Of a stretch of DNA of 64,000 bases, positions 5,924 through 58,350 are shown piece after piece. Within the stretch, counting starts at the first letter, position 1; every line of letters begins with the position of its first letter. A program made the position numbers and the translations under genes. Origin of the DNA: Myxococcota bacterium (GTDB taxonomy: Bacteria; Myxococcota_A; UBA796); assembly GCA_029251165.1 (NCBI GenBank), contig JAQXDW010000042.1, positions 1 through 64,000 on the forward strand. Direction: 5' to 3'. Below the pieces are notes generated by a model that did no database searches, had not been told where the DNA came from, and was given only the letters and a program-made list of their open reading frames with translations.

Positions 5924-6865
5924 CTACAGCTCGATCTGGGAGATCCGCCGCATCACCAAGACCCCGGAGGTGAAGCTGCAGAAGCTGAAGCCCAGCATCC
6001 AGTGTCCGATGGGGTCGGTGACCAGGGGGTTGAGGTACGCCGGCTGCATCAGCATGATCATAAAGGTGACGATGAAGGGCAGACCGCCGAGGATGATCGC
6101 TGAGAGCTTGGACTCCGCTGTCAGGGCCTTGACCTTGCGCTGGAAGAGGAAGCGATCTCGGATGGTCTTGGAGATGTTGTTGAGGATCTCGATGAGGTTT
6201 CCGCCGGTCTCTCTCTGGAGGACGACGGAGCTGACGAAGATCCGAAGATCGAAGTTGCGGGGATTGCGCAGACAGAGATCGCTGAGGCAGTCCCGCATGT
6301 CTCGGCCGAGGTTGTGCTCCTCGTGGACGCGTCCGAATTCGTGAGCGATGGGGGGGAGCATCTCGACGGCGCACATCCGCATGGCGTCGGAGAGGCCGTG
6401 TCCGGCCTGCAGCGATCGGGCGACGAGATCGAGACCATCGGGGAGCTGCTCAGAGAGAGCCTTGGCGCGCTCCTCGGCGCGAGAGCTGAGGATGATGATC
6501 GGAATTGTCCCGAAGAGCAGGCCGACCATACCTGCGATGCCCTTGATAAACACGCTGGTGAGGAAGGCACCGATGACGGCAAAGGCCGCCATCCGCATCA
6601 GAAGGCCAGAGAGGTCGTAGTCCTCCCCAGACTCACGCAGCAGGGCCTCCAGTCGTGTACCGAGCCCGCCGAGCGTTGCGAGCCATGGGTCGGTCTTCTG
6701 CTCCAGGAACAGGCTGGTCTCGGGGTTGTCTGCCAGCGTACCCAGTCGGCGAGCGAGGGCACGGGCTTCATTGTCCTGGCGGGTCCGATGGCTCCAATAC
6801 ATCAGGTTGGCAGCAGAGAGCACACCAACAAAGACCAGCGAGGAGATGAGGACGACGACGAGCAT
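5924..6865 (-). CDS. tadB: Tad secretion inner-membrane protein TadB (T2SS F family)
   Basis: LPDGLDLVARSLQAGHGLSDAMRM..PIAHEFGRVHEEHNLG, typical TadB. Confidence 0.9.
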   Translation of the reverse strand: MLVVVLISSLVFVGVLSAANLMYWSHRTRQDNEARALARRLGTLADNPETSLFLEQKTDPWLATLGGLGTRLEALLRESGEDYDLSGLLMRMAAFAVIGAFLTSVFIKGIAGMVGLLFGTIPIIILSSRAEERAKALSEQLPDGLDLVARSLQAGHGLSDAMRMCAVEMLPPIAHEFGRVHEEHNLGRDMRDCLSDLCLRNPRNFDLRIFVSSVVLQRETGGNLIEILNNISKTIRDRFLFQRKVKALTAESKLSAIILGGLPFIVTFMIMLMQPAYLNPLVTDPIGHWMLGFSFCSFTSGVLVMRRISQIEL

Positions 6866-8205
6866 CAGACTTCCATCTTGAAGCGGAACAGCTCGGGGGA
6901 GAGATGGATACCGCTCTGCTTGAGGCGAGCGGTGAACTTGGGACGGGTGCCGGTCGCGACGAACTCGCCGTGGATTCGGCCCTGATCATCCATGGTCTTC
7001 TGGTTGAACCGGAAGATGTCCTGGGTGGTCACGATCGAGCCTTCCATCCCGAGGACCTCGGTGACCGCCATGATGCGGCGGGTGCCGTCGGGGAGGCGGT
7101 CGAGCTGGATGACGACATCGAGCGCGCGCGCCATCATCTCTCGAATGGTCTTGTCGGTGAGGTTGGGCATGCCCATTCCGATCATCGTCTCGAGTCGAGA
7201 GAGGGCATCTCGGGTGGTGTTGGAGTGAACGGTGGCCAGTGAGCCTTCGTGGCCGGTGTTCATCGCCTGGAGCATGTCGATGGCTTCCGCCGAGCGAATC
7301 TCACCGAGGATGATGCGGTCTGGTCGCATCCGGAGAGAATTCTTCACGAGATCACGGGCCGTGACCTCGCCCTTTCCCTCCAGGTTGGGCGGGCGGGTCT
7401 CCAGGCGCACCACGTGCGGCTGCTGGAGCTGAAGCTCAGCGGCATCCTCGATGGTGATGATGCGCTCATCTGTGGGGATGAATGAAGACATCACGTTGAG
7501 GAGGGTGGTCTTTCCGGAGCCGGTTCCGCCGCTGATGATGATGTTCAGGGCTGCCTTCACGCAGCCCCGAAGGACCTGAATGATCGGCCGCGGGCAGGAG
7601 CCGTAGGCGATGAGATCCTCGGCGGTGATCGGCACGGTGCCGAACCGTCGGATGGAGACCACCGGGCCATCCAGCGCCAGGGGAGGGATGATCGCGTTGA
7701 ACCGACTGCCGTCCTGGAGTCGCGCGTCGACCATCGGGTTGGTCTCGTCGACCCGTCGACCCACCGCCGAGACGATTCGGTCGATGATCTGCATGAGATG
7801 CTGGTTGTCGTTGAACTTGACCTCAGCCTTCTGGAGGCGACCCCGCTTCTCGATGAAGATGGTGTCGTAGCCGTTGATCAGGATGTCGGAGATCGCAGGA
7901 TCTCGCAGCAGCGGCTCCAAGGGACCCAGGCCCAGGATCTCATCGAGGATCTCCTCGACCAGACGATCCCGCTCCAGGCGATTGAGCGGGAGGTTGCGGG
8001 TCTCGACGACCTGAGTGAGGGTCTTGCGAAGCTGCCGAGACAGCTCCTCGCGAGGAGTCTTGCTGACTCGCTCGTAGTCGATCTGACCGATGATCTCATT
8101 GTGGAGGAGCTTCTTGTAGCGCTCGAACTCCGCAGAGTCGGTCTGTGTGTCAGCCCGGTACCGCTGCTGTGCACCCCGAACGCGATCGATGAGCCGTGAC
8201 GACAT
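6865..8205 (-). CDS. tadA: Tad pilus assembly ATPase TadA/CpaF
   Basis: Walker [52 protein letters not shown]. Confidence 0.95.
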
Positions 8206-8232
8206 GAGCCTCTCCCTCCCTTCAGGTGAATT

Positions 8233-9411
8233 CTACCTGAACAGCCAGCCAAACGCTCGACGACCGGTGGGCGCCTCGACCTGGTCGACCCCCTCGGTGA
8301 TGAGGCTGGCAGCGGCCGCGATGTCCGCATGGAATTGCGATCGCTTGTCGACGCTGCGGACGAGCTGTCCCAGCGCGATGCTCCGAGGACAGGCGCTGTC
8401 TTTGTGGAGACGGGCGGCGATCGGGATCTTGAGGTTGGTCTCGATGTCCTTATCGGAGATCTCAGCCCCCTTCTCCCACTGATTGAGCACCAGCCGGATG
8501 GTGTCCGGTTCGATCTTCTGCTGCTCGAGCATCTGCAGTCTCCGCCAGGCGTTCTTGACCGAGACGACATCCGGAGTGCAGACCAGGAGGATCCGGTCTG
8601 CTGCGGTGGTCGCAGTCAGGGTGGCGGTGTCGATGTGGGCGCCACAGTCGACGAAGACATACTGGTAGGTCTCCGCAGCGATGGAGAGGATCCGGATGAG
8701 ATCCTCATCGCGCAGGGCGGTGTAGGGCGCGAGATCTGTGGGCTGCGAGAGCAGCTGCAGCTTGCTGGCGGGATGGATTGAGACGCTGCCCTTGAACAGG
8801 CGACTGTCCAGACGGTGCAGGTTCTCCATGAGATCGAGGATCGAGCTGCTCGGCTTGAGATCGAGGAATGCTGCGACGTCTCCCATGGAGAAGTCGAAGT
8901 CTGCGAGGCAGACCTGGTACAGCGCGGACAGCTCGGCAGCGAGGTTGGTGGCCACGAGGGTCGAGCCGAGCCCACCCTTGGCTCCCACGATCGCGATGAC
9001 CTCCCCGAGGTCTTCTTGCTGCTCGGTGCCATAGGCAGCGTCGTGGACCGCCTGGCGGAGCAAGGGACCATCTTCAGGGAGGACCACATACTCCCGGTAG
9101 CCCGCCCGCATTGCGGAGCGGATGCGTTCTGGGTCGGTCCGCTCAGAGATCGCGACGAGGTGGATGCCCACCTGCTCTGCCTGCAGCCGTGCTCCGAGGT
9201 CCACAGCGGCATCAAAGTCAACATCGAAGCCCATGATGACAACGTTTGGTCGTGTCTTCTGGACGATCTGAACGGCATCCTGGTAAGCGGTCGATTTCGT
9301 GGGAAGGACGGCCTCTGTACCGAGGCACTCGCGGATGAGTCCCATCCCGTGGGTGTTGACCCCGATGACCACTACCGAGGCTGCCCCCCGGCTCTGGTTG
9401 CGGTAGCGCAT
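8233..9411 (-). CDS. Pilus localisation protein TadZ/CpaE-like
   Basis: Receiver-like N-terminus plus ParA/MinD-like domain with deviant Walker A VGAKGGLGSTLVATNLA. Confidence 0.85.
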   Translation of the reverse strand: MRYRNQSRGAASVVVIGVNTHGMGLIRECLGTEAVLPTKSTAYQDAVQIVQKTRPNVVIMGFDVDFDAAVDLGARLQAEQVGIHLVAISERTDPERIRSAMRAGYREYVVLPEDGPLLRQAVHDAAYGTEQQEDLGEVIAIVGAKGGLGSTLVATNLAAELSALYQVCLADFDFSMGDVAAFLDLKPSSSILDLMENLHRLDSRLFKGSVSIHPASKLQLLSQPTDLAPYTALRDEDLIRILSIAAETYQYVFVDCGAHIDTATLTATTAADRILLVCTPDVVSVKNAWRRLQMLEQQKIEPDTIRLVLNQWEKGAEISDKDIETNLKIPIAARLHKDSACPRSIALGQLVRSVDKRSQFHADIAAAASLITEGVDQVEAPTGRRAFGWLFR

Positions 9412-9424
9412 CTGATCCTCTTTC

Positions 9425-10825
9425 TCAGCGTTCCAGACCGATGGGGCCGGTCGGCTCTACGGTTCGAGAGCCGGGTTGGTGATCCATTCCGAGCAGGAAC
9501 AGCTCAAAGTCGGTCGGGTTGTGGTTCTCAGCGGCTCCCGGCGGCATGGGGACCTCATCGGGGGCCATCGGGCGGACGAGACGCGGCGTGACGAAGATCA
9601 TCAGCTCGGTCTCATCACGATCATGCTCAATGGTTCGGAACAGGGCACCAATCACCGGAATATCACCAAGGATTGGAATCTGCTGAGTGGTCGAGCGGGA
9701 GGTCTCTTGGAGCATTCCAGCCATTGCGAAGGTCATGCCGTTGTCCACGCGGAGGTGGCTGGAGGTCTTGCGCGAGATGAAGGCTGGGATGTCAATGCCG
9801 GTCAGGCGGATGGCGTTGTTGTTGTCGATGTCAGAGACCTCGACGTAGACCCGCACATCGATGACGTCCTGTCCCAGGACCGTCGGGACGAAGGTCAGCT
9901 TGACGCCGTACTCTTTGAAGTCGATTGAGATTCGACTTCCGATCTGACTGACCGGGATCGGGATCTCACCGCCGGCGAGGAATTCTGCCTGCTGTCCAGA
10001 GAGCGCGACGAGTGTCGGCTGAGCGAGGATCTTGGAGACCCCGTTGGACTCCAGGACCGACAGAATCGCCGCGAGGTTGACGGGAGCACCGAGGGAGCCG
10101 ACGAGGTTGAAGGTGTCCGAGGAGAACGCCTGGGTGATGCCGCTGTTGACCTGGGACAGCTCGGGCCGGGTGGCGAAGCTGTTGCCGATAAGGGCCGGGG
10201 TCTGCAGCGCGAAGCCGAGGATGTTGTCTCCCCAGGAGCCGTTGATTCCCAGCGCGCGCATGCCGGAGCGGTTGACCTCTGCGAACACGACCTGCAGCTG
10301 AACCTGGTGGTCTCCGCCGACGCTCATGAGGTTGACGAATTCCTCGTCGTACAGCCGCGCGACTGCGGCGACCTGCTCAAGGGTCTGCACATCTCGGACT
10401 TCTCCCTCCAGCACCAGCCGACCGTTGATCGGGTAGGCGCGGGGGGCCTCTTCACCGGCGGTGATGGCATCGATGCGTCGGATCAGACCGCTGAGATCTT
10501 GGTGGACAGTGATGTCATAGGGAACCGGGTCTCTCGGGCTGTCGTTGAAGACCACCCAGACGTTGGTGTTGCCGACCGCGCTGCCCTTGATCCGAAACTG
10601 CTCTGGGGAGAGAGACTCGACGTTGATCACGCTGGAGTCCCCAACGATGATCTGCTTTACGGCACGACCCTCATCGAAGATGATCGAGTGACCAAGCTCC
10701 ACGTTCAGCCAGGTCGCCTCTCGCTCTTCTGGTGAGGACCAGGCTGAGGGGCGCTCCTGGGCGAGGGCAGGGGTGCTGAGGAGTCCCAGCATCAGGGGCA
10801 GCGAGGTAAGCAGCATCTTCAACAT
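9425..10825 (-). CDS. Secretin RcpA/CpaC family
   Basis: Signal peptide MLKMLLTSLPLMLGLLSTPALA, BON-like region, secretin C-terminus (VDNGMTFAMAGMLQETSRSTTQQIPILGDIPVIGALFR). ORF track starts at 10939, but the signal peptide supports 10825. Confidence 0.92.
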   Translation of the reverse strand: MLKMLLTSLPLMLGLLSTPALAQERPSAWSSPEEREATWLNVELGHSIIFDEGRAVKQIIVGDSSVINVESLSPEQFRIKGSAVGNTNVWVVFNDSPRDPVPYDITVHQDLSGLIRRIDAITAGEEAPRAYPINGRLVLEGEVRDVQTLEQVAAVARLYDEEFVNLMSVGGDHQVQLQVVFAEVNRSGMRALGINGSWGDNILGFALQTPALIGNSFATRPELSQVNSGITQAFSSDTFNLVGSLGAPVNLAAILSVLESNGVSKILAQPTLVALSGQQAEFLAGGEIPIPVSQIGSRISIDFKEYGVKLTFVPTVLGQDVIDVRVYVEVSDIDNNNAIRLTGIDIPAFISRKTSSHLRVDNGMTFAMAGMLQETSRSTTQQIPILGDIPVIGALFRTIEHDRDETELMIFVTPRLVRPMAPDEVPMPPGAAENHNPTDFELFLLGMDHQPGSRTVEPTGPIGLER

Positions 10826-10865
10826 TGTTCTGTGGTCCCCTGGTCGGTGTACCTGGGTGAGATCT

Positions 10866-11807
10866 TCAGCGGTTGCGGCGTTTGTTCTGCTCGACCCGAT
10901 TCCCGGACTCGTCGAACTGATCCACGGTAGTCCTGTCACCGATAATCTCTACAGCGGTGGTCTCTGGAGCCGTGGGCTTGGTCGCGCCCGTGCTCCGCAC
11001 ACCGACCGTCGAGCGAGCGGAGGGCTCGGCGGACTCGAAGCCAATCACGCTGGCGGAGGTGATTGGTCCGTGGGTGGCCTGCTGGGTGACGTCGACGTCG
11101 TTTCGCAGGACGAGGTGGACATCTCCCTTGGAGCTGGCCAAAGCGAGCTTCTCAGCCTCGGGGAGCGTGACCTCGAGGGTGACTGAGGGGCGGCTCCGAC
11201 GACCAGAGGTCTTCTTCTTGTTCCCGTCGTCCTTGGTGGCTCCGGTGAGGGAGCTGCCGACCGCGAGGACACGAATCCCCTGGAGGATGGTCTCGGTGAC
11301 CCACTTGGCGTCGATGTTGGCATCGTCTGGTCGAATGGTGACGATGATGTCGACGTAGTTGCCCGGCTGGAGCATCCCGGCGAGGCCGGACTCGGTGTCG
11401 GTCTCGACGGTCATCGCGCGCTTGTTGTTTGCGATGATGGCGTTCAGGCCGACGCCGGCCTCACGCTGCGCGAGGCGCTCGGCACGAAGCGGCTCGTTGG
11501 CCAGGACCCGCTCGCGCGGGACTCGGTTGATGACTTCATCCACAGAGTTGAAGACCAGCTCCCCGGTGATCATATCTGGAGTGAGCTGTCGGATCGTGAT
11601 GTCCTCATCGGTGATCGGAAGACCAACGTACAGATCCCGCAGCGCGACGATCACATCGACTGTCTCAGGTGGCTTTTGAGCCTCAGCGAGCTTCTTGCCA
11701 GAGCTCCTGAGGACCTGGAGGACGAGCCCGGCGGTCAGGCCGGCGACCAGCAGAGAGCCTCCCAGAAAGAGAAAGGCTCTCAAGCGACCTCCGGTTTGCT
11801 GTGCCAT
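10866..11807 (-). CDS. cpaB: Flp pilus assembly protein CpaB/RcpC
   Basis: N-terminal TM, SAF-like region (VDVIVALRDLYVGLPITDEDI), GLAGMLQPGNYVDIIVT. Confidence 0.88.
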   Translation of the reverse strand: MAQQTGGRLRAFLFLGGSLLVAGLTAGLVLQVLRSSGKKLAEAQKPPETVDVIVALRDLYVGLPITDEDITIRQLTPDMITGELVFNSVDEVINRVPRERVLANEPLRAERLAQREAGVGLNAIIANNKRAMTVETDTESGLAGMLQPGNYVDIIVTIRPDDANIDAKWVTETILQGIRVLAVGSSLTGATKDDGNKKKTSGRRSRPSVTLEVTLPEAEKLALASSKGDVHLVLRNDVDVTQQATHGPITSASVIGFESAEPSARSTVGVRSTGATKPTAPETTAVEIIGDRTTVDQFDESGNRVEQNKRRNR

Positions 11808-11890
11808 GAGTTCTCCGTGACAGATGAATCAAAATCGTGATGTCTGAGGACAGATGCGGGGCAAGCATACCCAGATCGCACCATGCGGAT

Positions 11891-12349
11891 CTAAAACAAC
11901 CTCAGGAACTCTGAGGTGTACAGAACGACCGCGATAGCCACAGCGACTGCATAAGGCAGCTTAACATCACTGAGGGGCGGGCGTCCCAGCGCCAGCAGCG
12001 CACGAGAGCTCATCACAATGCCCAGGGAGAGCAGGCCGTTGAGCACGCTGGCGACCAGCGTGACCTCGACGACACCCAGCCAGCCCAGGAATACACCGCA
12101 GACAATCGTCAGCTTTACGTCCCCGCCGCCGAGCACTCGGAGCGCGAACGGACCAATCAGGAGTCCGAGTCCGCATGCTGCTCCCAGAAGCGACAGACCC
12201 AGGCCGGCGAGTCCGCCGATCTGGGTCTGAAGAACGATACCGCTGACCAAGCCGATGGCGATTAGCCTGTTGGGTATGCGACGCTGAGAGATGTCCCAGG
12301 CCGCAGCAAGACCAACAAGGAGCCAGAGGATTGAGTGGAGCAAAAGCAC
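11891..12349 (-). CDS. Prepilin peptidase (A24 family, CpaA/TadV)
   Basis: 152 aa; DISQRRIPNRL and GGGDVKL aspartate motifs. Confidence 0.9.
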   Translation of the reverse strand: MLLLHSILWLLVGLAAAWDISQRRIPNRLIAIGLVSGIVLQTQIGGLAGLGLSLLGAACGLGLLIGPFALRVLGGGDVKLTIVCGVFLGWLGVVEVTLVASVLNGLLSLGIVMSSRALLALGRPPLSDVKLPYAVAVAIAVVLYTSEFLRLF

Positions 12350-12749: not shown

Positions 12750-13883
12750 TTAATCCCGCTTCTTTAAATGCACTTTTTCGCCATTATTACTGAACGTAAT
12801 CACTTCTTGACCTGTCAATAAGTTTTTCAGAGAGTCATGAAAGGTGCTCCGCCAGCCCGTCAGCGCGGCCGTACCTTCGCGGACAACGTTCAGCGGCTCG
12901 GGCAGCAGCAGCTTGGGTGAGATGTCTCGTGGCTCGCCGACGAGCTCAGCCCACATCGACAGCACTCTTCCTTTCTGGCGCTCTGGAAGTGTGGGCGGAA
13001 ACCGAGCGAGGGGGGCGCGCTGGGCGTTCTGGATGCAGCCGAGAATGTCTCGTCCGTGTCGCTTGACGAGGCCAGTGTTCAGTCGTCGGTTCTCCGAGAG
13101 CGCGCGAATCGAGGTCGGACGTCGCCGGGCGAGGTCCAGCAACATGCTGTCAGGCAGGAGATAGTACGGGGGCTTGTCTCTGCGCTCCGCCTGCTCAAAC
13201 CGCCAAGTCTGGAGGGCATCGAGCACCTTGAGGGCGTCGTCATCCAGTCGGCTACAGATCTCCCAGGAGTCGATGAGGTTGGGGCGTCGGTCAGCCTCGA
13301 GGGCATTGGTGCGCAGCTCCTCGCCGAGCTCCCAGGCCCACCCGAGCCGATCGCGCTGTGAGAGGTGCGTCATCAGCCGCTCAGCGAGCGGGAGGAGGAG
13401 CAGGGCATCTGCAGCGGCGTAGCGAATCTGCCGGCTGGTCAGCGGGCGGGCAGACCAGTCTGAGAGGGTCGAGCCCTTGTCCATCGGCACGTCGAGGAAG
13501 TGGGCGATGAGTGTGCTGAGGCGCTCTGGATAGCGGAGGCCGAGCAGACCAGCGGCTTGCTGGGTGTCGAAGATGCGGGTCGGTCGGGCCCCCAGTGCTG
13601 CGATGAGCCTCAGATCGTGTGTCCCGCTGTGGACAATTAGCTCCTGATTCGAGATCACACTGAGGGCGGGGGTGGGGTCGACGGCGAGCGGGTCGAGCAG
13701 CCAGACGGCCCCCGGTCCGGTGGCAATCTGAACCAGCATTAGCTGCGGCTGGTACCTGCGCTCGGCATGAAATTCCGTGTCCACTGCGATGCGCGGAGCC
13801 TGTCGGATTGCCTCTGTGAGCTCGATGAGTCGCTCAGGTGTGTTGACGAGGCAGATGGCCTCGTTCTTGGTCTGCTCTGCCAT
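12750..13883 (-). CDS. rnd: Ribonuclease D
   Basis: DEDD exonuclease motifs (IAVDTEFHAERRYQPQLMLVQIA, HSGTHDLRLIAA, IRYAAADALLLLPLAERL) plus HRDC-like region. Confidence 0.88.
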   Translation of the reverse strand: MAEQTKNEAICLVNTPERLIELTEAIRQAPRIAVDTEFHAERRYQPQLMLVQIATGPGAVWLLDPLAVDPTPALSVISNQELIVHSGTHDLRLIAALGARPTRIFDTQQAAGLLGLRYPERLSTLIAHFLDVPMDKGSTLSDWSARPLTSRQIRYAAADALLLLPLAERLMTHLSQRDRLGWAWELGEELRTNALEADRRPNLIDSWEICSRLDDDALKVLDALQTWRFEQAERRDKPPYYLLPDSMLLDLARRRPTSIRALSENRRLNTGLVKRHGRDILGCIQNAQRAPLARFPPTLPERQKGRVLSMWAELVGEPRDISPKLLLPEPLNVVREGTAALTGWRSTFHDSLKNLLTGQEVITFSNNGEKVHLKKRD

Positions 13884-13911
13884 TCCCAGCCCCTCCTGTT
13901 GTCATCCCAGG

Positions 13912-13935
13912 CATCGATACTGTCATCGATACTGT
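13912..13935. repeat. Perfect tandem repeat 2 x CATCGATACTGT in the rnd/UbiA-like divergent intergenic region
   Basis: Direct reading GCATCGATACTGTCATCGATACTGTGC. Confidence 0.9.
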
Positions 13936-14077
13936 GCCCGCCGCACGTTGTCGCACCCAGCTGCAAGACGCGCTCACTGGGGTCTGGGCCATCGGGCAGG
14001 ATGTGGCCTTTCCCGAGTGTGCTTCGGAGAGCGTCAGACAATAGCTGCTGGTGCCCCCCCCTGGATAGAGGGGCCTG

Positions 14078-14965
14078 ATGTTGACTGCTGACTCTCCACT
14101 CTCCCTGCGGATCGCCGGCTACCTTGGCGAGCGCTTTCCCCCCGTCGTGTACACCGTCCTGGTGGTGCTCTTCTTTGGGAGCGCGGTGCTCAACGCTTCG
14201 GCCCTGACGGCTGCACCCCTCTCCTGGCGTGTGCTGCTCGGGGCGCCGGTGGTCTGGCTGGTGTTCTTCCACCTCCGGGTGTTTGACGAGCACAAAGACT
14301 TCAGTCTCGATGTCATCGCTCACCCCGAGCGCCTGCTGTCGCGTGGGGTGGTGACCCTCCCTCTCCTGGCCCGACTGGCTGGGGCTGCGATCCTCATGGA
14401 GGGACTCCTCTCGGTGCTGCTCGGCTGGCCTGCCCTTGCAGCCTGGGCGGCGGCGCTGGTCTTCAGCGTCTTGATGCGGCTGGAGTTTGGCGTCGGAGAG
14501 TGGCTGTCTTCGCGGATCCTCTTGTATGCCGTCACCCACAACCCGATCGTCGGTCTGCTGGCGCTGGTGGGCTTCTTCTCCATCGGCGCTGGCTTCTCGC
14601 CTCGGTTCCTGTGGTACGTCGCCGCAGCCTCGCTGGCCTCGCTGGCCTTCGAGCTGGGCCGCAAGATTCGGCTGCCGGAGGAAGAGATCGCTGGGGTCGA
14701 CAGCTACTCATCGGTCCACGGTCGAGCCCGTGCCGGGCTGATCCTGTCTGGAGTCATCCTGGGCGCCGCAGGGCTAACGGGGGTCGCAGTCTGGACGGTC
14801 TCTCCGAGCGTGGGCCAGCATGCGCTCAGCGGCGTACTGGTCCTGCTCGGTGCGCTGGTTGGGATAGTGGAGGCCCGACCTGGACGGCCAGCGAAGAAGG
14901 TGGAGCTTGGAAGCGCCCTCTTCCTCCTGATCATCCTCCTGGCAATGGGTATAGCAGCATGGTGA
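14078..14965 (+). CDS. UbiA-like membrane prenyltransferase family protein
   Basis: Polytopic; RVFDEHKDFSLDVIAHPERLLSRGVV resembles the UbiA Asp-rich motif; second acidic loop PEEEIAGVDSYSSVHG. Confidence 0.65.
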   Translation: MLTADSPLSLRIAGYLGERFPPVVYTVLVVLFFGSAVLNASALTAAPLSWRVLLGAPVVWLVFFHLRVFDEHKDFSLDVIAHPERLLSRGVVTLPLLARLAGAAILMEGLLSVLLGWPALAAWAAALVFSVLMRLEFGVGEWLSSRILLYAVTHNPIVGLLALVGFFSIGAGFSPRFLWYVAAASLASLAFELGRKIRLPEEEIAGVDSYSSVHGRARAGLILSGVILGAAGLTGVAVWTVSPSVGQHALSGVLVLLGALVGIVEARPGRPAKKVELGSALFLLIILLAMGIAAW

Positions 14966-17463
14966 TCTGGGACCACGACCTCAAGAATGGAGTCAGCGGA
15001 ACCATCGGCGGCAAGGCTGCGGGGCTGCTGCGGCTCCTCCGCGCTGACGTGGCCGTTCCCCGCTTCTTCGTCATCCCTCCTGAATGCCCTGTCGACGGGG
15101 TCGCTGCGGCGTGGCGAGCGCTCGGCGGCGGTCGGGTCGCGGTCCGCTCGTCGGCGGTCGGAGAGGATGGTGCGGAGCACAGCTTTGCTGGAATGTACGC
15201 GTCGATCATCGGCGTGAAGACCGAGGCGGACATCCTCGCCGCAGTCCAGACTTGTCGCGACAGCGCCCAGTCTGAGCGACTCCAGACCTACCTCACGCAG
15301 AAAGGACTCCCGCCGACCCCGGTCGCGGTGATCGTTCAGGTGCTGGCCGAGGGAGAGTCAAGCGGGGTGATGTTCTCGGCTGACCCGATGGATCCGGAGC
15401 GGGTGCTGATCTCGGCGGGCTGGGGACTGGGCGAGGGCATCGTGCAGGGCGCGGTTCCGACGGACACCTTTCGGGTGAACGCAGCGGGAGCGGTCGAGGC
15501 GTGGCTGGTAGACAAAGACGTACAGCTCCTCCTGGTCAATGATGCGCCGGCAGAGTGTGTGGTTCCTCAGGACCGTCGACACACCGCCTGTCTCACCGAC
15601 AGCAGCGCCGTGAAGCTCGCCGCGATTGGTCGCCGTCTCTCCCGCGTGCTCGGCGGTCCGCAGGACATCGAGTGGACCGTGAGCAAGGGCCGCCTGGTCA
15701 TCCTCCAGACCCGTCCGATCACCCAACCGATCCCATCTGGTCGCCGACTCCTGTGGGACAACGCCAACATCATCGAGAGCTACTTTGGGCTCACCGGTCC
15801 GCTGACCTACAGCTTCGCCAGCCACGCCTACACCATCGTCTACCAGCTGTTCTGTGAGGTCATGGGTGTCGACAAGGCCACCATTCAGGAGAATGCGGGA
15901 ATCTTTCCGCGCATGATCGGACTGGTTCGTGGCCGGATCTACTACAACCTCAACGCCTGGTACACGGTCGTCTCGTTGCTGCCTGGCTACCGCTGGAACC
16001 GAACCTTCCTCGAGCAGATGATGGGCGTCTCTGAGGTCGCCTCTGACGTGGACGTGCCGCCGACGGGCCGGCTGGAGCGCCTCACCGCGCTCCCGAAGTT
16101 GCTGAAGATGACCGGCGGTCTGCTGTGGCGCGCCAGCCGCCTGGATGCAGACGTCAAGTCATTCCACACGACCTTTGAGTCTGCGGTCGGTCAGCACGCG
16201 GGCAAGGAGCTCACAGACGTCGCGCCGTTTGATCTGCTCGACATCTACGCCGATCTGGAGCGGCAGCTGCTCTGGGCGTGGTCCACTCCGATCGTCAACG
16301 ACTTCTTCGTGATGATCTTCCACGGGCTGCTCCGCTCTCTGTGTGGAAAGTGGGTCCCGGGCGCGGCGGATCTTCACAACGCACTCCTCGCAGGAGAGGG
16401 CGGGATCATCTCGACGGCACCCGCCACGGAGGCGGTCAAGCTCGCCAACCAGATCCGCACCGATGCTGCCCTCGCGGAGCTCTTCCTCTCGGACGCATCC
16501 GATCAGGCCTTGCTGGATGCGGTTCGGGCTCACCCTCGGCTCAGCGCGCTGTTTGAGGGCTACCTCGTTCGACTCGGAGACCGCTGCACGGACGAGCTGA
16601 AGCTGGAGGTTGAGACCCTTCGGCATCGCCCCGACATCCTCATCCGCACCCTCCGCAGCTACATCTCTACTGCACCTGCCGACCTCGCCCGTGGAGAGCG
16701 CACAGAGCTGGCGATGCGAAAGCGCGCGGAGATGCAGGTCGCCCACTCCCTGACCGGCTGGCGGGCGCGGGTGTTCGACATGGTGCTGCGGCGGGCCCGT
16801 AGGCGGGTGGCGGATCGCGAGAACCTCCGCTTCCTGCGGACACGCATCTTTGCCCTGGTCCGCGAGATCTTTCGCGCGCTGGGCCGGCACATGGTCCAGC
16901 AGGGCGACCTCGATGCCTTCGAGGACATCTTCTACCTCACTGTCGACGAGGCCTTCGGCTGGGTGCGCGGGACTGCCGTCACCACCAACCTCCGTGGGCT
17001 CGCGGCGCTGCGAAGGGCAGAGTACGACGGGTGGCGGACCGAGCCACCTCCGGCGGACCGCTTCCACACCTGGGGGCCGATCTGGGCGCACAACCGCTTC
17101 GTCGGAGTGCCGGCTCGCCTCGACGCTGCGCACTCTGATGAGCTGGTTGGTCTGCCCGCCTGTCCTGGTCTGGTCGAGGGGACCGTCCGACGAATTGTCG
17201 ATCCGAGGGAGGAGGTCATGGGCGAGGACGAGATCCTGGTTGCCTACCGAACCGACCCCGGCTGGATCTCGCTGTTTCCCAAGGCTCAGGCGGTGCTCGT
17301 CGAGCGGGGAAGCCTGCTGTCGCACTCCGCGGTGGTCGCCCGAGAGCTTGGGATTCCCACCATCGTCGGCATCGCTGGCTTGATGGACCGGCTGAGGACC
17401 GGCGACCGGATTCGCGTCGATGCTGCTGCAGGGCGGGTGGAGATCTTGGAGAGCGAAGAATGA
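14959..17463 (+). CDS. PEP synthase/dikinase-family protein with rifampin-phosphotransferase-like domain order
   Basis: PPDK_N-like N-terminus (GGKAAGLLRLL..PRFFVIPP..VRSSAVGED), C-terminal phosphohistidine domain (LVERGSLLSHSAVVARELGIPTIVG). Start reset to MVIWDHD because the ORF-track N-terminus overlaps the upstream gene out of frame. Confidence 0.85.
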   Translation: MVIWDHDLKNGVSGTIGGKAAGLLRLLRADVAVPRFFVIPPECPVDGVAAAWRALGGGRVAVRSSAVGEDGAEHSFAGMYASIIGVKTEADILAAVQTCRDSAQSERLQTYLTQKGLPPTPVAVIVQVLAEGESSGVMFSADPMDPERVLISAGWGLGEGIVQGAVPTDTFRVNAAGAVEAWLVDKDVQLLLVNDAPAECVVPQDRRHTACLTDSSAVKLAAIGRRLSRVLGGPQDIEWTVSKGRLVILQTRPITQPIPSGRRLLWDNANIIESYFGLTGPLTYSFASHAYTIVYQLFCEVMGVDKATIQENAGIFPRMIGLVRGRIYYNLNAWYTVVSLLPGYRWNRTFLEQMMGVSEVASDVDVPPTGRLERLTALPKLLKMTGGLLWRASRLDADVKSFHTTFESAVGQHAGKELTDVAPFDLLDIYADLERQLLWAWSTPIVNDFFVMIFHGLLRSLCGKWVPGAADLHNALLAGEGGIISTAPATEAVKLANQIRTDAALAELFLSDASDQALLDAVRAHPRLSALFEGYLVRLGDRCTDELKLEVETLRHRPDILIRTLRSYISTAPADLARGERTELAMRKRAEMQVAHSLTGWRARVFDMVLRRARRRVADRENLRFLRTRIFALVREIFRALGRHMVQQGDLDAFEDIFYLTVDEAFGWVRGTAVTTNLRGLAALRRAEYDGWRTEPPPADRFHTWGPIWAHNRFVGVPARLDAAHSDELVGLPACPGLVEGTVRRIVDPREEVMGEDEILVAYRTDPGWISLFPKAQAVLVERGSLLSHSAVVARELGIPTIVGIAGLMDRLRTGDRIRVDAAAGRVEILESEE

Positions 17464-18572
17464 GTGAGGTGCACAGTGCCAAGGGGATCGGAGTGTTTGA
17501 GCAGCGGCTCTCCTACGCGCAGTGCTGGGAAGATCCGCAGGTCTTGCAGGAGGCGCTTCAGGTGGGGGAGGGAGACGACGTGCTCTCCATCTGCTCCGCA
17601 GGAGACAACAGCTTCGCGCTGGTCATCGCCGGGGCGCGCTCGGTCACCGCGCTCGACCTCTCCGTCCCGCAGCTCTCCCTCGCTGAGCTGAAGCTGGCCG
17701 CGATTCAGTCCTTTCCTCCCGATGGGGTCTACACCCTCCTGGGGCTCAACGCGTTCGGGCGGCGGGTCTTCACCTACCACCAGCTCAGGGATCGGCTCTC
17801 TCAGCGCAGCCGGAGCTACTGGGACCGACACGAGGGAACCATCCGACGCGGTCTGCTGGGGCAGGGTAAATTTGAGCAGTATCTCCGTGCATTTCGGACC
17901 CGGCTGCTGCCCCTGGCTCACTCCCGGCGCACGGTCGATGCGATGATGGCGCTCTCCGACCCCGTCGAGCAGCAGGCCTTGTTCCGCACGCGCTGGGACT
18001 CGATGCGGTGGCGTGGGCTGTTCAAGGTGTTCTTCTCTCGTCGGGTGATGGCGAAGGCGGGGCGCTCAGAGGCGCACTTCCAGTACGTCGACGGGCCGGT
18101 CTCAGCCGTCTTCCTCGAGCGCACCCGGCACGTGCTCACGGCGATCCCGGCGGCGACCAACCCGTTCCTGCAGTGGATCCTCAACGGTGCCTACACCGAC
18201 CTCAATGCCGCCCATCCCTACCTCTCGGAGGCTGGGCAGGCGGTGCTCCGGGCGCGCGCGGATCGCATCCGGTTTGTTCATGCGGACCTGGAGACCTTCC
18301 TGAAGGGCTGCGCGCCGAGAAGCTTCTCAGCGTTTAATTACTCCAACCTGTTTGAGTACCTCTCTGCTGACCAGCACGAGCGTCTGCTGGAGCTGACCAT
18401 CCGCGCGGCTCGACCGGGGGCTCGGATCGCCTACTGGAATCTCCTGGTCCCGCGCAGTCGGCCAGCGGGACTCGCCAAGCACCTCACACGCCATCCTGAG
18501 GTGTCCGCCGCGCTGCTTGAGCGGGATCGGGCGTTTGTCTATGGCGGCTTCCAGATCGAAGTTGTCCGGTAG
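17460..18572 (+). CDS. DUF3419/BtaA-like S-adenosylmethionine:diacylglycerol 3-amino-3-carboxypropyltransferase family protein
   Basis: YAQCWEDPQVLQEAL, SICSAGDNSFALVIAGARSVTALDLS, SAFNYSNLFEYLS; overlaps upstream stop (ATGA). Confidence 0.8.
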   Translation: MSEVHSAKGIGVFEQRLSYAQCWEDPQVLQEALQVGEGDDVLSICSAGDNSFALVIAGARSVTALDLSVPQLSLAELKLAAIQSFPPDGVYTLLGLNAFGRRVFTYHQLRDRLSQRSRSYWDRHEGTIRRGLLGQGKFEQYLRAFRTRLLPLAHSRRTVDAMMALSDPVEQQALFRTRWDSMRWRGLFKVFFSRRVMAKAGRSEAHFQYVDGPVSAVFLERTRHVLTAIPAATNPFLQWILNGAYTDLNAAHPYLSEAGQAVLRARADRIRFVHADLETFLKGCAPRSFSAFNYSNLFEYLSADQHERLLELTIRAARPGARIAYWNLLVPRSRPAGLAKHLTRHPEVSAALLERDRAFVYGGFQIEVVR

Positions 18573-18581
18573 AGTCTGGCC

Positions 18582-20846
18582 ATGGCGACCCGAACCGACT
18601 TCTCCCGCAGCCTGGTTGGCCTGATCATCAGTCTGCGCTGGCCGTTCTTGGTGATTCTGGCTGGTCTGACCGTCCTCGCTGGCGTGCTTGCGGCACAGGT
18701 CGGGGTCGACAACGCTGTGGAGATCTGGTTCCTCGACGACGATCCCACGCTCGTCAGCTACCACGACTTTCAAGAGAGCTTCGGAAACGATGAAGTGGTC
18801 GCCATCGCGGTCGCCAACGATCCGCTGTCAGCCGAGGGACTGAGCCGACTCCGGGCGCTGGATGACGCGGCGTCGGCCATCGATGGAATCGGAGAGGTTC
18901 GCTCACCGGCCAGCGCGGTCGGAATCAGCGGAGATGCCGGTACCCTGGAGGTCGGAACCCTGCTGCCTGCAGGAGCGATCAGCCCAGAAGACGCCGCGAA
19001 GATCAGCACCCAGCTGCGCTCCGACCCGCTGATGCGCCCCCTGGTCTCCTCCGACGGTGAGCTGGCGATGGTGCTGGCGCGCATGGAGGCGCTGGATGAC
19101 ATCGACGCACGCCGCGACGGCATCCTCGCTCAGCTCCGGGCGCAGCTCGATGCGATCGATGGAGACCTCTCCTATGCTGGGATCGGGGTCATCTACGCCG
19201 CCCTCAACGACGCCTCTACCCGAGGCGCGGCGGTGTTCATTGTCGCCAGCTACCTGCTCATTGCGGTCCTCCTCTGGCGGCTGTTCGGCCGGATCGGCCC
19301 AACCCTGCTGACCTTGATCGCGGTGGGAGTCGCTGCGAGCGGGCTGATGGGGGTGTACGCCAGCAGCGGCCGGGACATCAACATGGTGACCATGGTCCTG
19401 CCCACCCTGGTCCTGGTGATCGGGGTGTCCTCGTGTGTGCACATGCTCGTCCATGTCGCAGACCAGGACCCGAGCCTGACCGGCAGAGCGCGGACCATCG
19501 CTGGGGTGGGCTTCGTGTTCTGGCCCTGCCTCTTCAACACCCTGACCACCTGCATGGGCTTCCTCGCCCTCGGCACCGCCGCGATGCCGGTCATTCGCGA
19601 CCTCGGCTACTTCGGCGCGGTCGGCCTCGCGCTGGCGTTCGTCGTTGGTCTGCTGCTGTGTTCCTCGCTGGCGCCGATGCGCTTCTTTCAGCCCGCCAAC
19701 AGCAACACCGGGCGCATCCAGCGCATGGTCGATGGCCTCGCCAACCTCGCGGTCACCCGCAGCCGGGCGGTCCTCGTCGTGGCGGCGTTTGCCGCACTCA
19801 TTGCTGCGCTGGGCATCACCCGCATCCAGGTCGACACCTACTCCATTGACTTCCTGCGGGCCTCACACCCCGTCCGCGTTGACTCCGAGCGGATCGAGGC
19901 GGGCTACGGAGCCTACACTCCCCTTGAGTTCGTGGTTCGGGCAGAGGCGGGCGTGAAGACTCCGGAGGTCCTCGGTGCAGTCGCTGCGTGGCAGGACCGC
20001 ATGGCAGCCCATCCCGATGTCGGCTGGAGCCACTCTGCTGCGGATGTGGTCCGTCGGCTCAACGAGGTGCTCACTGGCGATGGTCCCGAGGCCCGCGTGG
20101 TTCCCGCAGATCCGTTCGCACTCGACCAGCTGCTCTTTCTCTACGACTCCAGTCCCGATGCCGATCTCTCTGCGCTCATCGCTGAGAACGATGCTGCTGC
20201 ACGGATCACTGTTGGCATCCCAATGGGCAGCGCGCAGCGCTTCCAGCGCACCATCTCTGAGCTGGAGGCCCTCGCCCAGCTGCCCGAGGGAGTGACCCTC
20301 ACCGCCAGCGGCTACCTGCCCCTGTATGTGCAGATGATGGACTACATCGTGCGCAGCCAGCTCACGAGCTTTGGCCTCGCCTTCCTCATCATCTTCGCCC
20401 TGGTCGGCCTGCTGTTCGGCAGCCTGCGCATGGCGATGATCTCCATCCCCGCCAACCTCCTCCCGGTGCTGATGACGCTGGGACTCATGGGCATCCTCGG
20501 GATCCGGCTCGACGTCGCCACGGTCACCATTGCTGCCATCGTGCTGGGGCTTGTGGTCGACGACACGGTGCAGTTTCTCTACCGCTACCGCCACGAGCGC
20601 AGCCGGCACCGCTCAGAGGCTGAGGCGGTCTCTCAGGCTGTCCGAGTGGCCGGTCGTCCGATGGCGATCACCACCATCGTGCTCGCCCTGGGCTTCTGTG
20701 TGCTCGGGCTCGCCAGCGTCAAGTCGGTGGCCTGGTTTGGCCTGCTGCTGGCCTTCGCTCTCGTCAGCGCACTGCTCTCAGACCTCCTCGTCATCCCAGC
20801 GTTCCTGGTGATGCTTGGAGAGGAAGATGCTGAGGAAGCCGCCTAA
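18582..20846 (+). CDS. MMPL/RND-superfamily transporter
   Basis: 754 aa, two sets of TM segments (VLPTLVLVIGVSSCVHMLVH; AIVLGLVVDDTVQFLYRYRHE). Confidence 0.9.
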   Translation: MATRTDFSRSLVGLIISLRWPFLVILAGLTVLAGVLAAQVGVDNAVEIWFLDDDPTLVSYHDFQESFGNDEVVAIAVANDPLSAEGLSRLRALDDAASAIDGIGEVRSPASAVGISGDAGTLEVGTLLPAGAISPEDAAKISTQLRSDPLMRPLVSSDGELAMVLARMEALDDIDARRDGILAQLRAQLDAIDGDLSYAGIGVIYAALNDASTRGAAVFIVASYLLIAVLLWRLFGRIGPTLLTLIAVGVAASGLMGVYASSGRDINMVTMVLPTLVLVIGVSSCVHMLVHVADQDPSLTGRARTIAGVGFVFWPCLFNTLTTCMGFLALGTAAMPVIRDLGYFGAVGLALAFVVGLLLCSSLAPMRFFQPANSNTGRIQRMVDGLANLAVTRSRAVLVVAAFAALIAALGITRIQVDTYSIDFLRASHPVRVDSERIEAGYGAYTPLEFVVRAEAGVKTPEVLGAVAAWQDRMAAHPDVGWSHSAADVVRRLNEVLTGDGPEARVVPADPFALDQLLFLYDSSPDADLSALIAENDAAARITVGIPMGSAQRFQRTISELEALAQLPEGVTLTASGYLPLYVQMMDYIVRSQLTSFGLAFLIIFALVGLLFGSLRMAMISIPANLLPVLMTLGLMGILGIRLDVATVTIAAIVLGLVVDDTVQFLYRYRHERSRHRSEAEAVSQAVRVAGRPMAITTIVLALGFCVLGLASVKSVAWFGLLLAFALVSALLSDLLVIPAFLVMLGEEDAEEAA

Positions 20847-22432
20847 CCGAGCAGCACACCCGGGTTGAGCACCCCGGCTGGATCGAGGGTCTGCTTCACC
20901 GCTCCAAGGGCCGCTGCGAACAGGTCAGGCCGCTGCTGGTCGTACCAGGGGCGATGGAGGCGGCCGACGGCGTGGTGGTGGGTGATGGTCGCGCCGTTGC
21001 GGGACAGGGCCTCTGAGGCGGCGGTCTTGATCGCACGCCACTGGTGGAGCGTCTTCCCGGTGCGCGCGGGGCAGAGGAAGGTGTAGTAGGGGGCTGGACC
21101 GTCGGGGTAGACGTGGGTGAACCGGCAGCTCAGCAGCCCACCTCCAGCGACGTCTTGCATCGTGGCCTTGACCGAGCGGACCACGTCGGCATGCAGCGCC
21201 TCGAAGCGGTCCCAGGGGATGGCGGTCTCGAAGGTGTCGGCGATGACGCCGAGGGTCGCCAGGGCGGTCTGTCGGTAGGGCGCGCGGAAGAACGCGCTGC
21301 GCCAGGACTCGGCGGCTGCGGTCTCGATCCGGGTGCGCTCCGTGTGGCTCGGTCCGTCCTCCACTGCTCCGCCGTGTGCGCATGCCATCGCGATGGCCCG
21401 ATCGAGGCCCTGCCGCTGGTTATGGGTTGCAGACTCAAAGCCCAGCAGCAGAACATGGCTGCCGAAGGCGACCTGGTTGAGCATCGCCTCTCGCTTGTCG
21501 AGCAGTCGGCAGTTCGCTGGAAACAGGCGAGACTGTGCGATGTCATGGACTGCGGCCACTGCTGCGGAGAACTCGGAGAAGTGGACCGCAGCCTTCGAGC
21601 GGTGAATCGGGCGTGGAAACACGCGCATCCAGGCTTCGGTGATCACCCCGAGGGTGCCCTCGCTGCCCAGCACGAGGCGATCCGGGCTGGGACCCGCGCC
21701 AGAGCCGGGGAGTCGTCGGCTCTCCCAGGCTCCCTGGGGGGTGACCATGCGGACGGAGGAGACGAGATCGTCGATGTGGGTGTAGTTGGTTGCGAAGTGC
21801 CCGCCGGCGCGCGTGGCGATCCAGCCGCCGAGGGTGGAGTGGGCGAAGGACTGCGGGAAGTGTCGGAGGGTGAGGTCGTGCTCAGCGAGCTGTGCCTCCA
21901 GCACCGGGCCGAGCGCACCGCCCTGGATGCGCGCATGCAGCGTCTCAGGGATGACCTCCAGTACCTGGTCCATGGCGGTCATGTCCAGGCACAGGACCCC
22001 CGCGAAGCCCTCGCCCCGACACTCCACCCCGGCGACCACGCTGCTGCCGCCGCCATAGGGAACCACCGCGACGTTGTGGGCGCTCCCCCATGCCAGCGCA
22101 GCAGAGACCTCCGCCTCGCTCCGGGGCTGTGCGATCAGATCTGGGGCGGGAGAGAAGTCTCCCTGCATGCCGCGGATGAGATCGGGGAAGCCGCGCCCGT
22201 AGGTTCGGGTGGCGCGTGCTCGAGGGGCTGCGGTGGTGAATTCGGCCAGCTCGGCCGGAATCGCGAGGCGAGGTGCTGGAACCCGGGCATCCTCAAACCG
22301 TGGCCACGCAGCGGGCGCAGGCAGCGACCAGCCCGTCACCATTCCCACCAGTCCCCTCAGCTCTGCCCGCTCGGTCTCGGTCGGAAATTCGTCCTCGTAT
22401 CCCCAGCCCCAGTACGACCGCGTCTTCGTCAT
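20843..22432 (-). CDS. FAD-linked oxidase, alkyldihydroxyacetonephosphate synthase (AGPS)-like
   Basis: WGWGYEDEF N-terminus, FAD_binding_4 (VVPYGGGSSVVAGVE), THHHAVGRLHRPWYDQQRPDLFAAALGAVKQTLDPAGVLNPGVLL; start reset to MTKTRSYWGWG. Confidence 0.85.
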   Translation of the reverse strand: MTKTRSYWGWGYEDEFPTETERAELRGLVGMVTGWSLPAPAAWPRFEDARVPAPRLAIPAELAEFTTAAPRARATRTYGRGFPDLIRGMQGDFSPAPDLIAQPRSEAEVSAALAWGSAHNVAVVPYGGGSSVVAGVECRGEGFAGVLCLDMTAMDQVLEVIPETLHARIQGGALGPVLEAQLAEHDLTLRHFPQSFAHSTLGGWIATRAGGHFATNYTHIDDLVSSVRMVTPQGAWESRRLPGSGAGPSPDRLVLGSEGTLGVITEAWMRVFPRPIHRSKAAVHFSEFSAAVAAVHDIAQSRLFPANCRLLDKREAMLNQVAFGSHVLLLGFESATHNQRQGLDRAIAMACAHGGAVEDGPSHTERTRIETAAAESWRSAFFRAPYRQTALATLGVIADTFETAIPWDRFEALHADVVRSVKATMQDVAGGGLLSCRFTHVYPDGPAPYYTFLCPARTGKTLHQWRAIKTAASEALSRNGATITHHHAVGRLHRPWYDQQRPDLFAAALGAVKQTLDPAGVLNPGVLLG

Positions 22433-22588
22433 CGCGCACCTCACATGGAGAGCAACCATACCGATCTCGAAGACCGGGCCCAGCCTCGGCCCGATCCTGA
22501 CATGCGCCGGACACACCCGCGCTGCGTGGGGGGACGCCTCCGGCCCCGTCGCCACGGTCGAGCCCCTCGGAGCGGGAGCGTGACAGCA

Positions 22589-57480: not shown

Positions 57481-58350
57481 TTACAGCGACCCACTCCATC
57501 GACCAATGGCCTGTCCGACGCGCACTCGCATGCCTGGCGTCAGCTCCCAGGTGAAGTCTCCTGGTGGCAGCAAGAGGATCACGGTGCTGCCGAGTCCAAA
57601 GCTTCCCAGCTCAGCCGCGCGCGTGATGGCGGGTGGAGTGGGCTGAGTGACGTCTCGGGACTCGCCGCCTGTGTTGGTGATGATGTCGGCATGTGGAGAC
57701 GTCATCCGCCCGACGCCAAAGGCCCCGATCATGGCCGCAGCGATGAGTCCCCGATCCGTCTGTACCTGGAAGATGAGGCGCTCGTTGCGATCAAACAAGC
57801 CATCGATTCGACGTGTTGCTGTCGGAAAGACCGGCCAGAGCCTCCCGGGCAGGTAGCGGGTCCGCACCAGGCTACCCTCGCGAGGGGAGTGGACCCGGTG
57901 GTAGTCCTGCGGCGAGAGGTACAGCACCGCGTAGTGGCCGCCCTCGAACTGCTCTCCGGTCATCGGCGGCGCAGACTCGGTCCGTGAGTCGGCAGCACCA
58001 ACGAGGTCAGCGATGCTGCCGGAGCGGGTGTCGGACTGCGCGAAGGTGCCATCGACAATTCGGCCGAAGGTGTGGACCTTTGCATCCGCTGGACTGACCA
58101 GGACCTCCGGGGTCTCATCAGTAGGGCGTGCTGCCGGCAGCAGCGGACGGAGGAAGAAGTCTGACAGCGAGGCGTAGTCCGCTGGACCCCCGACACATTC
58201 GTCGAGGTTGATCTTGTATCGCCAAGCGAAAGCCTTAATTAACAGGCGAGATAGCCCAGAACGGGAAATCGCACCCATCAGCCTTGTGGTGTGGTTCTTG
58301 GGAACAACACTCAACAGAGAAATGATCAAACCGTCACGCATAACATCCAC
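57481..58350 (-). CDS. psd: Phosphatidylserine decarboxylase proenzyme
   Basis: LSDFFLRPL, AVLYLSPQDYHRVHSP, LGST self-cleavage motif FGLGSTVILLLP. Confidence 0.93.
   Translation of the reverse strand: MDVMRDGLIISLLSVVPKNHTTRLMGAISRSGLSRLLIKAFAWRYKINLDECVGGPADYASLSDFFLRPLLPAARPTDETPEVLVSPADAKVHTFGRIVDGTFAQSDTRSGSIADLVGAADSRTESAPPMTGEQFEGGHYAVLYLSPQDYHRVHSPREGSLVRTRYLPGRLWPVFPTATRRIDGLFDRNERLIFQVQTDRGLIAAAMIGAFGVGRMTSPHADIITNTGGESRDVTQPTPPAITRAAELGSFGLGSTVILLLPPGDFTWELTPGMRVRVGQAIGRWSGSL

Follow-up and report, generated by a model that had tools for sequence, protein, structure and literature searches.

A UbiA-dikinase-DUF3419 gene cluster shared by Myxococcota and distant phyla, probably building a lipid-like molecule with a SAM-derived piece

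Four adjoining genes in a myxococcotal genome, encoding a UbiA-superfamily membrane transferase, a dikinase, a DUF3419 protein and an MMPL transporter, raise the question of whether they form one pathway and, if so, what that pathway makes. An initial annotation had proposed a tightly coupled, uncharacterised cluster for the synthesis and export of a lipid that is probably not standard DGTS. "Uncharacterised" appears apt, since no description of a UbiA-dikinase-DUF3419 cluster was found in open-access papers.

Organization of the locus

The window, i.e. the whole stretch of 64,000 nucleotides analysed, is contig C55 of a draft genome (8.0 Mb in 152 contigs). The nearest named relatives are metagenome-assembled 'Deltaproteobacteria', which their taxonomy labels assign to Myxococcota. 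The features are listed in Table 1. Close coupling of the four plus-strand genes is confirmed. All four ORFs are intact, with a single stop per frame and coding-like GC3 (0.79-0.82); UbiA and dikinase overlap by 7 nt, dikinase and DUF3419 by 4 nt (ATGA), and a 9-nt gap separates DUF3419 from MMPL.

Table 1. Coordinates of the cluster, its upstream neighbours and the PS decarboxylase gene in the window
Feature	Position	Strand	Basis
RNase D, divergent from UbiA	12750-13883	-	
Divergent intergenic region, 194 bp, RNase D (-) / UbiA (+), likely promoter region	13884-14077		
UbiA-superfamily membrane transferase, 295 aa	14078-14965	+	PF01040, profile, fold
RPH-type ATP dikinase, 834 aa, ATG start 14959	14959-17463	+	PF01326, PF00391
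DUF3419 protein, 370 aa, predicted SAM-dependent 3-amino-3-carboxypropyl transferase, non-BtaA subfamily	17460-18572	+	PF11899, tree, signature, fold
MMPL/HAE3-type RND transporter, 754 aa, putative exporter	18582-20846	+	PF03176, TIGR00921
PS decarboxylase, sole copy in the window genome, same contig, about 37 kb from the cluster	57481-58350	-	

No sigma-70-like promoter match was found in the intergenic region upstream of UbiA, and an Rfam scan of the window gave no matches. RNase D divergently adjoins the locus in most relatives. Beside RNase D lie Tad/Flp pilus genes (6865-12349, minus strand), identified by sequence as CpaF/E-like, secretin, RcpC/CpaB and prepilin peptidase; CpaB-type genes also flank the locus in relatives, and the site is thus syntenic. 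At 20843-22555 on the minus strand, convergent with the MMPL gene and overlapping it by 4 nt, is a FAD_binding_4/FAD-oxidase_C protein with a WGWG-type N-terminus, possibly alkyl-DHAP synthase-like. This AGPS-like oxidase was rejected as a cluster member, as a homologue lies near the cluster in no relative.

Conservation within the order

The sample comprised 63 genomes of the order, none of them from a cultured representative. UbiA (E < 1e-60) was found in 16, the dikinase (E <= 1e-160) in 17 and a close DUF3419 in 18. The gene sets coincide save in two genomes: G060, which is fragmented, is without UbiA, and G051 has DUF3419 only. Fisher p values range from 4e-13 to 2e-14 (about 5e-14 for UbiA-dikinase, about 2e-14 for dikinase-DUF3419) and are indicative only, thresholds having been set after the lists were seen and the genomes being related, with no phylogeny correction. 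Distances of the three proteins also correlate (r 0.85-0.94, not corrected for phylogeny). Two records titled 'Klebsiella pneumoniae' (L036, CAMAWH010000031.1; L038, CAMAXZ010000014.1) match order genomes G037 and G038, and their titles look mislabelled.

The MMPL gene directly follows DUF3419 in 14 of the 18 order genomes with a close DUF3419. Only in the window's order is it a partner, and some clusters of the order lack it as well; some other lineages have an FtsX/LolD-type ABC exporter.

Related loci in other phyla

At least 17 loci have UbiA, dikinase and DUF3419 as a contiguous block, an arrangement seen also in Ignavibacteriota, Calditrichota, Bacteroidota, Balneolota and on an alphaproteobacterial plasmid. 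Related loci were sorted by arrangement, type C being that of the window.

Type B, ordered YegS/DAGK lipid kinase, UbiA, dikinase, a GNAT protein (F4), PS decarboxylase, DUF3419, FtsX/MacB permease and LolD ATPase, includes loci in Ignavibacteriales (L039), Calditrichia (L043) and Bacteroidetes UBA10030 (L064), and a partial locus on a short contig (L068). It also includes a groundwater delta (L040) in which no exporter was identified; for UbiA, dikinase and DUF3419 alike the L040 copies cluster with those of FCB bacteria, which suggests, from sequence, transfer as a unit. Each of the five type B genomes carries PS decarboxylase in two copies, one of them in the cluster, and the three type C genomes tested, that of the window included, have one. 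F4 homologues occur in 10 of 10 type C genomes searched, where their neighbours are glmS, coaD and the like; judged generic for this reason, they were discarded as uninformative.

Type D, consisting of UbiA, dikinase, DUF3419 and an F29-like membrane protein with GNAT and AMP-binding enzyme genes nearby, includes Balneolaceae (L044) and a plasmid of Roseinatronobacter sp. S2 (L089). A VTE5/VTE6-like phytol kinase identity for F29 was rejected, the only match being a weak DUF92-type one (TIGR00297, E 0.003).

Type A, found in Bacteroidota, Aminicenantes, WOR-3, Gemmatimonadota, Nitrospirota and Deinococcota, is without UbiA or dikinase. Its order is lipid kinase, PEMT-like methyltransferase, DUF3419, F4, LysA-like decarboxylase, class II aldolase-like protein, permease and ATPase. 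The membrane methyltransferase is closest to LmtA, the lipid A 1-phosphate methyltransferase (NCBIfam, E 4e-12). At L050 (7188-9062), as at other type A loci, DUF3419 shares a reading frame with a PEMT/ICMT-like membrane methyltransferase or comes immediately after it. The decarboxylase is of the PLP type, and the aldolase-like protein has an MtnB-like domain (E 1e-8 to 1e-6); a real MtnB adjoins the DUF3419-BtaB pair of L084. MtnB belongs to methylthioadenosine salvage, and aminocarboxypropyl (ACP) transfer releases methylthioadenosine. Decarboxylases and an MtnB-like domain in related clusters would thus fit ACP transfer with methylthioadenosine release, followed in some lineages by decarboxylation, as has been proposed for MccD/MccE acting on microcin C. 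The dedicated PS-decarboxylase paralogue or LysA-like decarboxylase, the lipid kinase and the GNAT of related clusters suggest that the SAM-derived ACP group can be decarboxylated, perhaps acylated.

The initial annotation had made its case depend on co-conservation of all four genes. For UbiA, dikinase and DUF3419 this stands, as they co-occur in the order and are contiguous across phyla; for MMPL, restricted to the order, it does not. The conserved core is UbiA-dikinase-DUF3419, not all four genes.

Loss of UbiA and dikinase and decay of DUF3419

Ten order genomes without UbiA and dikinase retain DUF3419 beside RNase D, and these sequences nest inside the type C clade. Residues Y19, Q21, N50 and N293 are lost in all ten and kept in all 17 type C rows, a comparison in which some row ends were trimmed by the search and the decayed rows form one clade, so that they stand close to one or two independent events. 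In the lone DUF3419 of G051, D66 and N293 are changed to His. Loss of the signature where UbiA and dikinase are lost indicates that the enzymes are probably functionally linked, and the simplest reading of these sequences is that selection on the DUF3419 active site ends once the other two are gone. In L078-L083 and L024-L027, from the window's order, where DUF3419 stands beside RNase D after loss of UbiA, dikinase and MMPL, the catalytic signature is degenerate and the middle region (GG.E, W-R-W) is conserved; these proteins are possibly repurposed.

UbiA-dikinase pairs also exist without DUF3419 (G018:C18, G015:C198), and the pair is therefore probably one unit acting on one intermediate. 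Such pairs are also seen on the minus strand at L117 (7214-10908) and L118 (2458-11496); after the L118 pair come a second dikinase and a class III aminotransferase protein.

Chance neighbourhood of four genes with no shared function could be argued from how common each family is alone and from the confinement of MMPL adjacency to the order. Conservation across phyla, overlapping frames and co-loss with active-site decay largely refute it, and it is considered highly improbable.

The DUF3419 protein is not a canonical BtaA

The DUF3419 protein matches PF11899 with 211 bits (cut-off 28.2, E 4e-62). Its model (pLDDT 92) has a class I SAM-binding fold, for which Foldseek returned only the generic class I methyltransferase fold, and a PDB sequence search gave no significant relative. 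BtaA is an established ACP transferase of PF11899, taking the group from SAM (PMC10491745), and is the sole DUF3419 enzyme of known function citable here. The cluster proteins have PF11899, the WEDP motif and SAM-loop residues in common with BtaA/BTA1 of DGTS synthesis. Identity to BtaA is 27% or less, however, and in the DUF3419 tree, read without row L050, whose translation was out of frame, the cluster types stand apart from the clade holding Chondrinema and Sinorhizobium BtaA. The signature of the window protein is YxQxWEDP plus FNYSNLFEY (FNxSNxFEY); at the same conserved position cluster proteins have FNxS(N/D)xFE(Y/W), whereas the BtaA clade has xxDW. BtaA-clade rows L085, L087, L090 and L091 each adjoin a BtaB-like gene, whereas the cluster DUF3419 is without a BtaB partner and is linked to UbiA and dikinase. 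Judged by sequence, the cluster DUF3419 is not canonical BtaA, and its ACP-transfer activity is assumed by analogy with this distant relative. A further undescribed DUF3419 context is seen on Rhizobium plasmid pMK-2 (L092, 1847-8185), where genes for KAS III, a reductase, an MBL hydrolase, a CoF-synthetase-like protein and a divergent DUF3419 stand in a row.

The initial annotation was right that the cluster has no BtaB-like gene; the best match in the whole genome is a generic methyltransferase (29 bits over half the protein). Ordinary DGTS synthesis, with BtaB encoded at another genomic site and the neighbouring genes unrelated, would draw on PF11899 membership and the presence of generic SAM methyltransferases in the genome. 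Tree position, signature and the missing BtaB partner all speak against it. In addition, G038 holds a type C cluster (L038) alongside a BtaA-BtaB pair (L085), from which it follows that the two systems are not interchangeable. DGTS synthesis is thus very unlikely here, in line with the earlier doubt that the product is standard DGTS; the cluster is not the known DGTS enzyme set.

UbiA, dikinase and transporter

The UbiA protein scores below the Pfam cut-off for PF01040 (23 bits, E 5.5e-5), and its family assignment therefore relies on profile and fold. With the family profile (A1) the nearest solved relative is the digeranylgeranylglyceryl phosphate (DGGGP) synthase 6m31 (E 3e-8). Using the AlphaFold2 model (pLDDT 94), the top Foldseek matches are 7bpu, 6m31 and 4od4, the DGGGP synthase structures 7bpu and 6m31 coming first, with a TM of about 0.67 to 7bpu and 4od4. 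Motif 1 is DExKDxxxD as against the canonical NDxxDxxxD of DGGGP synthase, and is invariant from Myxococcota to Balneolota; the acidic positions are kept, but N-to-D and D-to-E changes have occurred. This departure makes a non-prenyl donor possible. The motif 2 region reads ExxRKxR...EE followed by an invariant Tyr and Gly, and 20 columns are invariant in an alignment of 15 sequences. An archaeal-type diether lipid pathway was rejected for types C and D: GGGP synthase (PF01884) is absent from the window genome, four other type C genomes and the type D genomes searched. It was found in two type B genomes, and partially in a third, on contigs other than that of the cluster.

The dikinase matches PF01326 (180 bits) and PF00391 (80 bits). 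Rifampin phosphotransferase (RPH) has the domain order ATP-grasp, substrate domain and C-terminal His domain, with known catalytic residues (PMC4844700); the cluster dikinase follows the same order, its phosphohistidine being H789, and is collinear with 5fbs at both ends. RPH residues R117, R666-E667, K670 and H825 align to R63, R620-E621, R624 and H789, all of which are invariant in 16 cluster sequences, and the Arg-Glu transfer pair (R620-E621) and catalytic His of RPH-type dikinases are both present. Domain order, R-E pair and His are likewise as in HpeHI/PigC-like dikinases (PMC4844700, PMC12167813). The middle domain differs from that of RPH and is strongly conserved, and there is no resistance context. 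Identity as a PEP synthase was rejected, since no PEP-utilising TIM-barrel domain follows the His domain, which is the C-terminal end. The kinase role suggested for this protein by the initial annotation is supported by these conserved residues. RPH-type dikinases also lie next to an AfsA-like gene and an isoprenylcysteine-type methyltransferase gene, i.e. in a gamma-butyrolactone-like cluster, at two Streptomyces plasmid loci (L106, 6027-10424; L107, 4610-9364), a nitroreductase intervening in L107.

The MMPL protein matches PF03176 (76 bits, cut-off 20.5, E 3e-21) and TIGR00921 (E 1e-50). It belongs with HpnN and other MMPL/HAE3 lipid transporters by family and by a sterol-sensing-domain match, but scores below the HpnN equivalog cut-off.

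Proposed pathway

The preferred reading, in whose favour and against which the chances are judged about equal, is a biosynthesis-and-export module. The dikinase would use ATP (to AMP + Pi) to phosphorylate an acceptor hydroxyl. UbiA, acting most like DGGGP synthase, would move a prenyl-type chain from its diphosphate onto the phosphorylated acceptor. DUF3419 would then use SAM to alkylate the UbiA product with a 3-amino-3-carboxypropyl group, methylthioadenosine being released, and MMPL would move the resulting homoserine-type amphiphile (not DGTS) outward. DGGGP synthase prenylates the hydroxyl of a phosphorylated glycerol lipid, and for this reason the dikinase is tentatively placed before UbiA. 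Substrates, step order, product and transport direction are all inferred. Points against this pathway are that BtaA is only a distant relative, that UbiA motif 1 is non-canonical, that DUF3419 stands alone in G051 and that MMPL is not conserved outside the order.

The product could instead be a small, prenylated secondary metabolite (an antibiotic, a signal or a metallophore) rather than a membrane lipid, with MMPL as an efflux pump. RPH-type dikinases act on small molecules and have relatives in natural-product-like loci such as the Streptomyces AfsA cluster, ACP transferases also make metallophores (PMC10491745), and MMPL/HAE3 pumps export diverse compounds. Yet the locus keeps its place next to RNase D in different families of the order, whereas metabolite clusters are typically sporadic, and the FCB clusters hold lipid kinases, PS decarboxylase and LolD/FtsX-type exporters. 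This reading is regarded as rather unlikely.

Alternatively, DUF3419 may alkylate a lipid phosphate, made by the dikinase or by YegS/DAGK-type kinases, giving a phosphatidylhomoserine-like lipid that related clusters decarboxylate to an aminopropyl phospholipid, maybe N-acylated. The lipid kinase genes of types A and B, the second PS decarboxylase of type B genomes, the LysA-like PLP decarboxylase that type A has instead and the likeness of the type A methyltransferase to LmtA, an enzyme of a lipid phosphate, are all in keeping with this. So are two precedents: MccD/MccE of microcin C aminopropylate a phosphate (PMC10491745), and E. coli makes phosphatidylhomoserine and, probably via Psd, phosphatidylpropanolamine (PMC12221286). 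MccD/MccE combine ACP transfer from SAM with a PLP decarboxylase, a logic seen also in type A clusters, but the same review (PMC10491745) states that MccD and BtaA are not homologues, and the window cluster has neither a decarboxylase nor a dedicated lipid kinase. Known DUF3419 chemistry, that of BtaA, is moreover on a hydroxyl. Phosphate as acceptor is chemically reasonable by analogy with the E. coli lipid, and the reading as a whole is unlikely. Taken further, it would mean amino-headgroup phospholipids made independently of CDP-alcohols, SAM alkylating the lipid phosphate via a non-BtaA DUF3419, with a phosphatidylhomoserine-like lipid kept in the order and decarboxylated to an aminopropyl phospholipid in FCB relatives by a PS-decarboxylase paralogue or a LysA-like enzyme; this is offered as a speculative and improbable extension.

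Significance

Current annotation of DUF3419 proteins is either BtaA-like or unknown function. The present data set apart a subfamily that has an active-site signature of its own and is tied in some phyla to UbiA and an RPH-type dikinase and in others to a lipid kinase, decarboxylase and ABC exporter. A testable role is thereby given to one clade of 'PEP synthase-like' dikinases that had no assignment, and specific mass-spectrometric products and assays are predicted. The locus is probably a pathway-like unit, common to distant phyla and apparently undescribed in the open-access literature, that builds a lipid-like molecule with a SAM-derived piece. If the chemistry is right, widespread uncultured bacteria would make a so far undescribed class of amino lipids derived from SAM, possibly with phospholipid-like headgroups built without CDP-activated intermediates.
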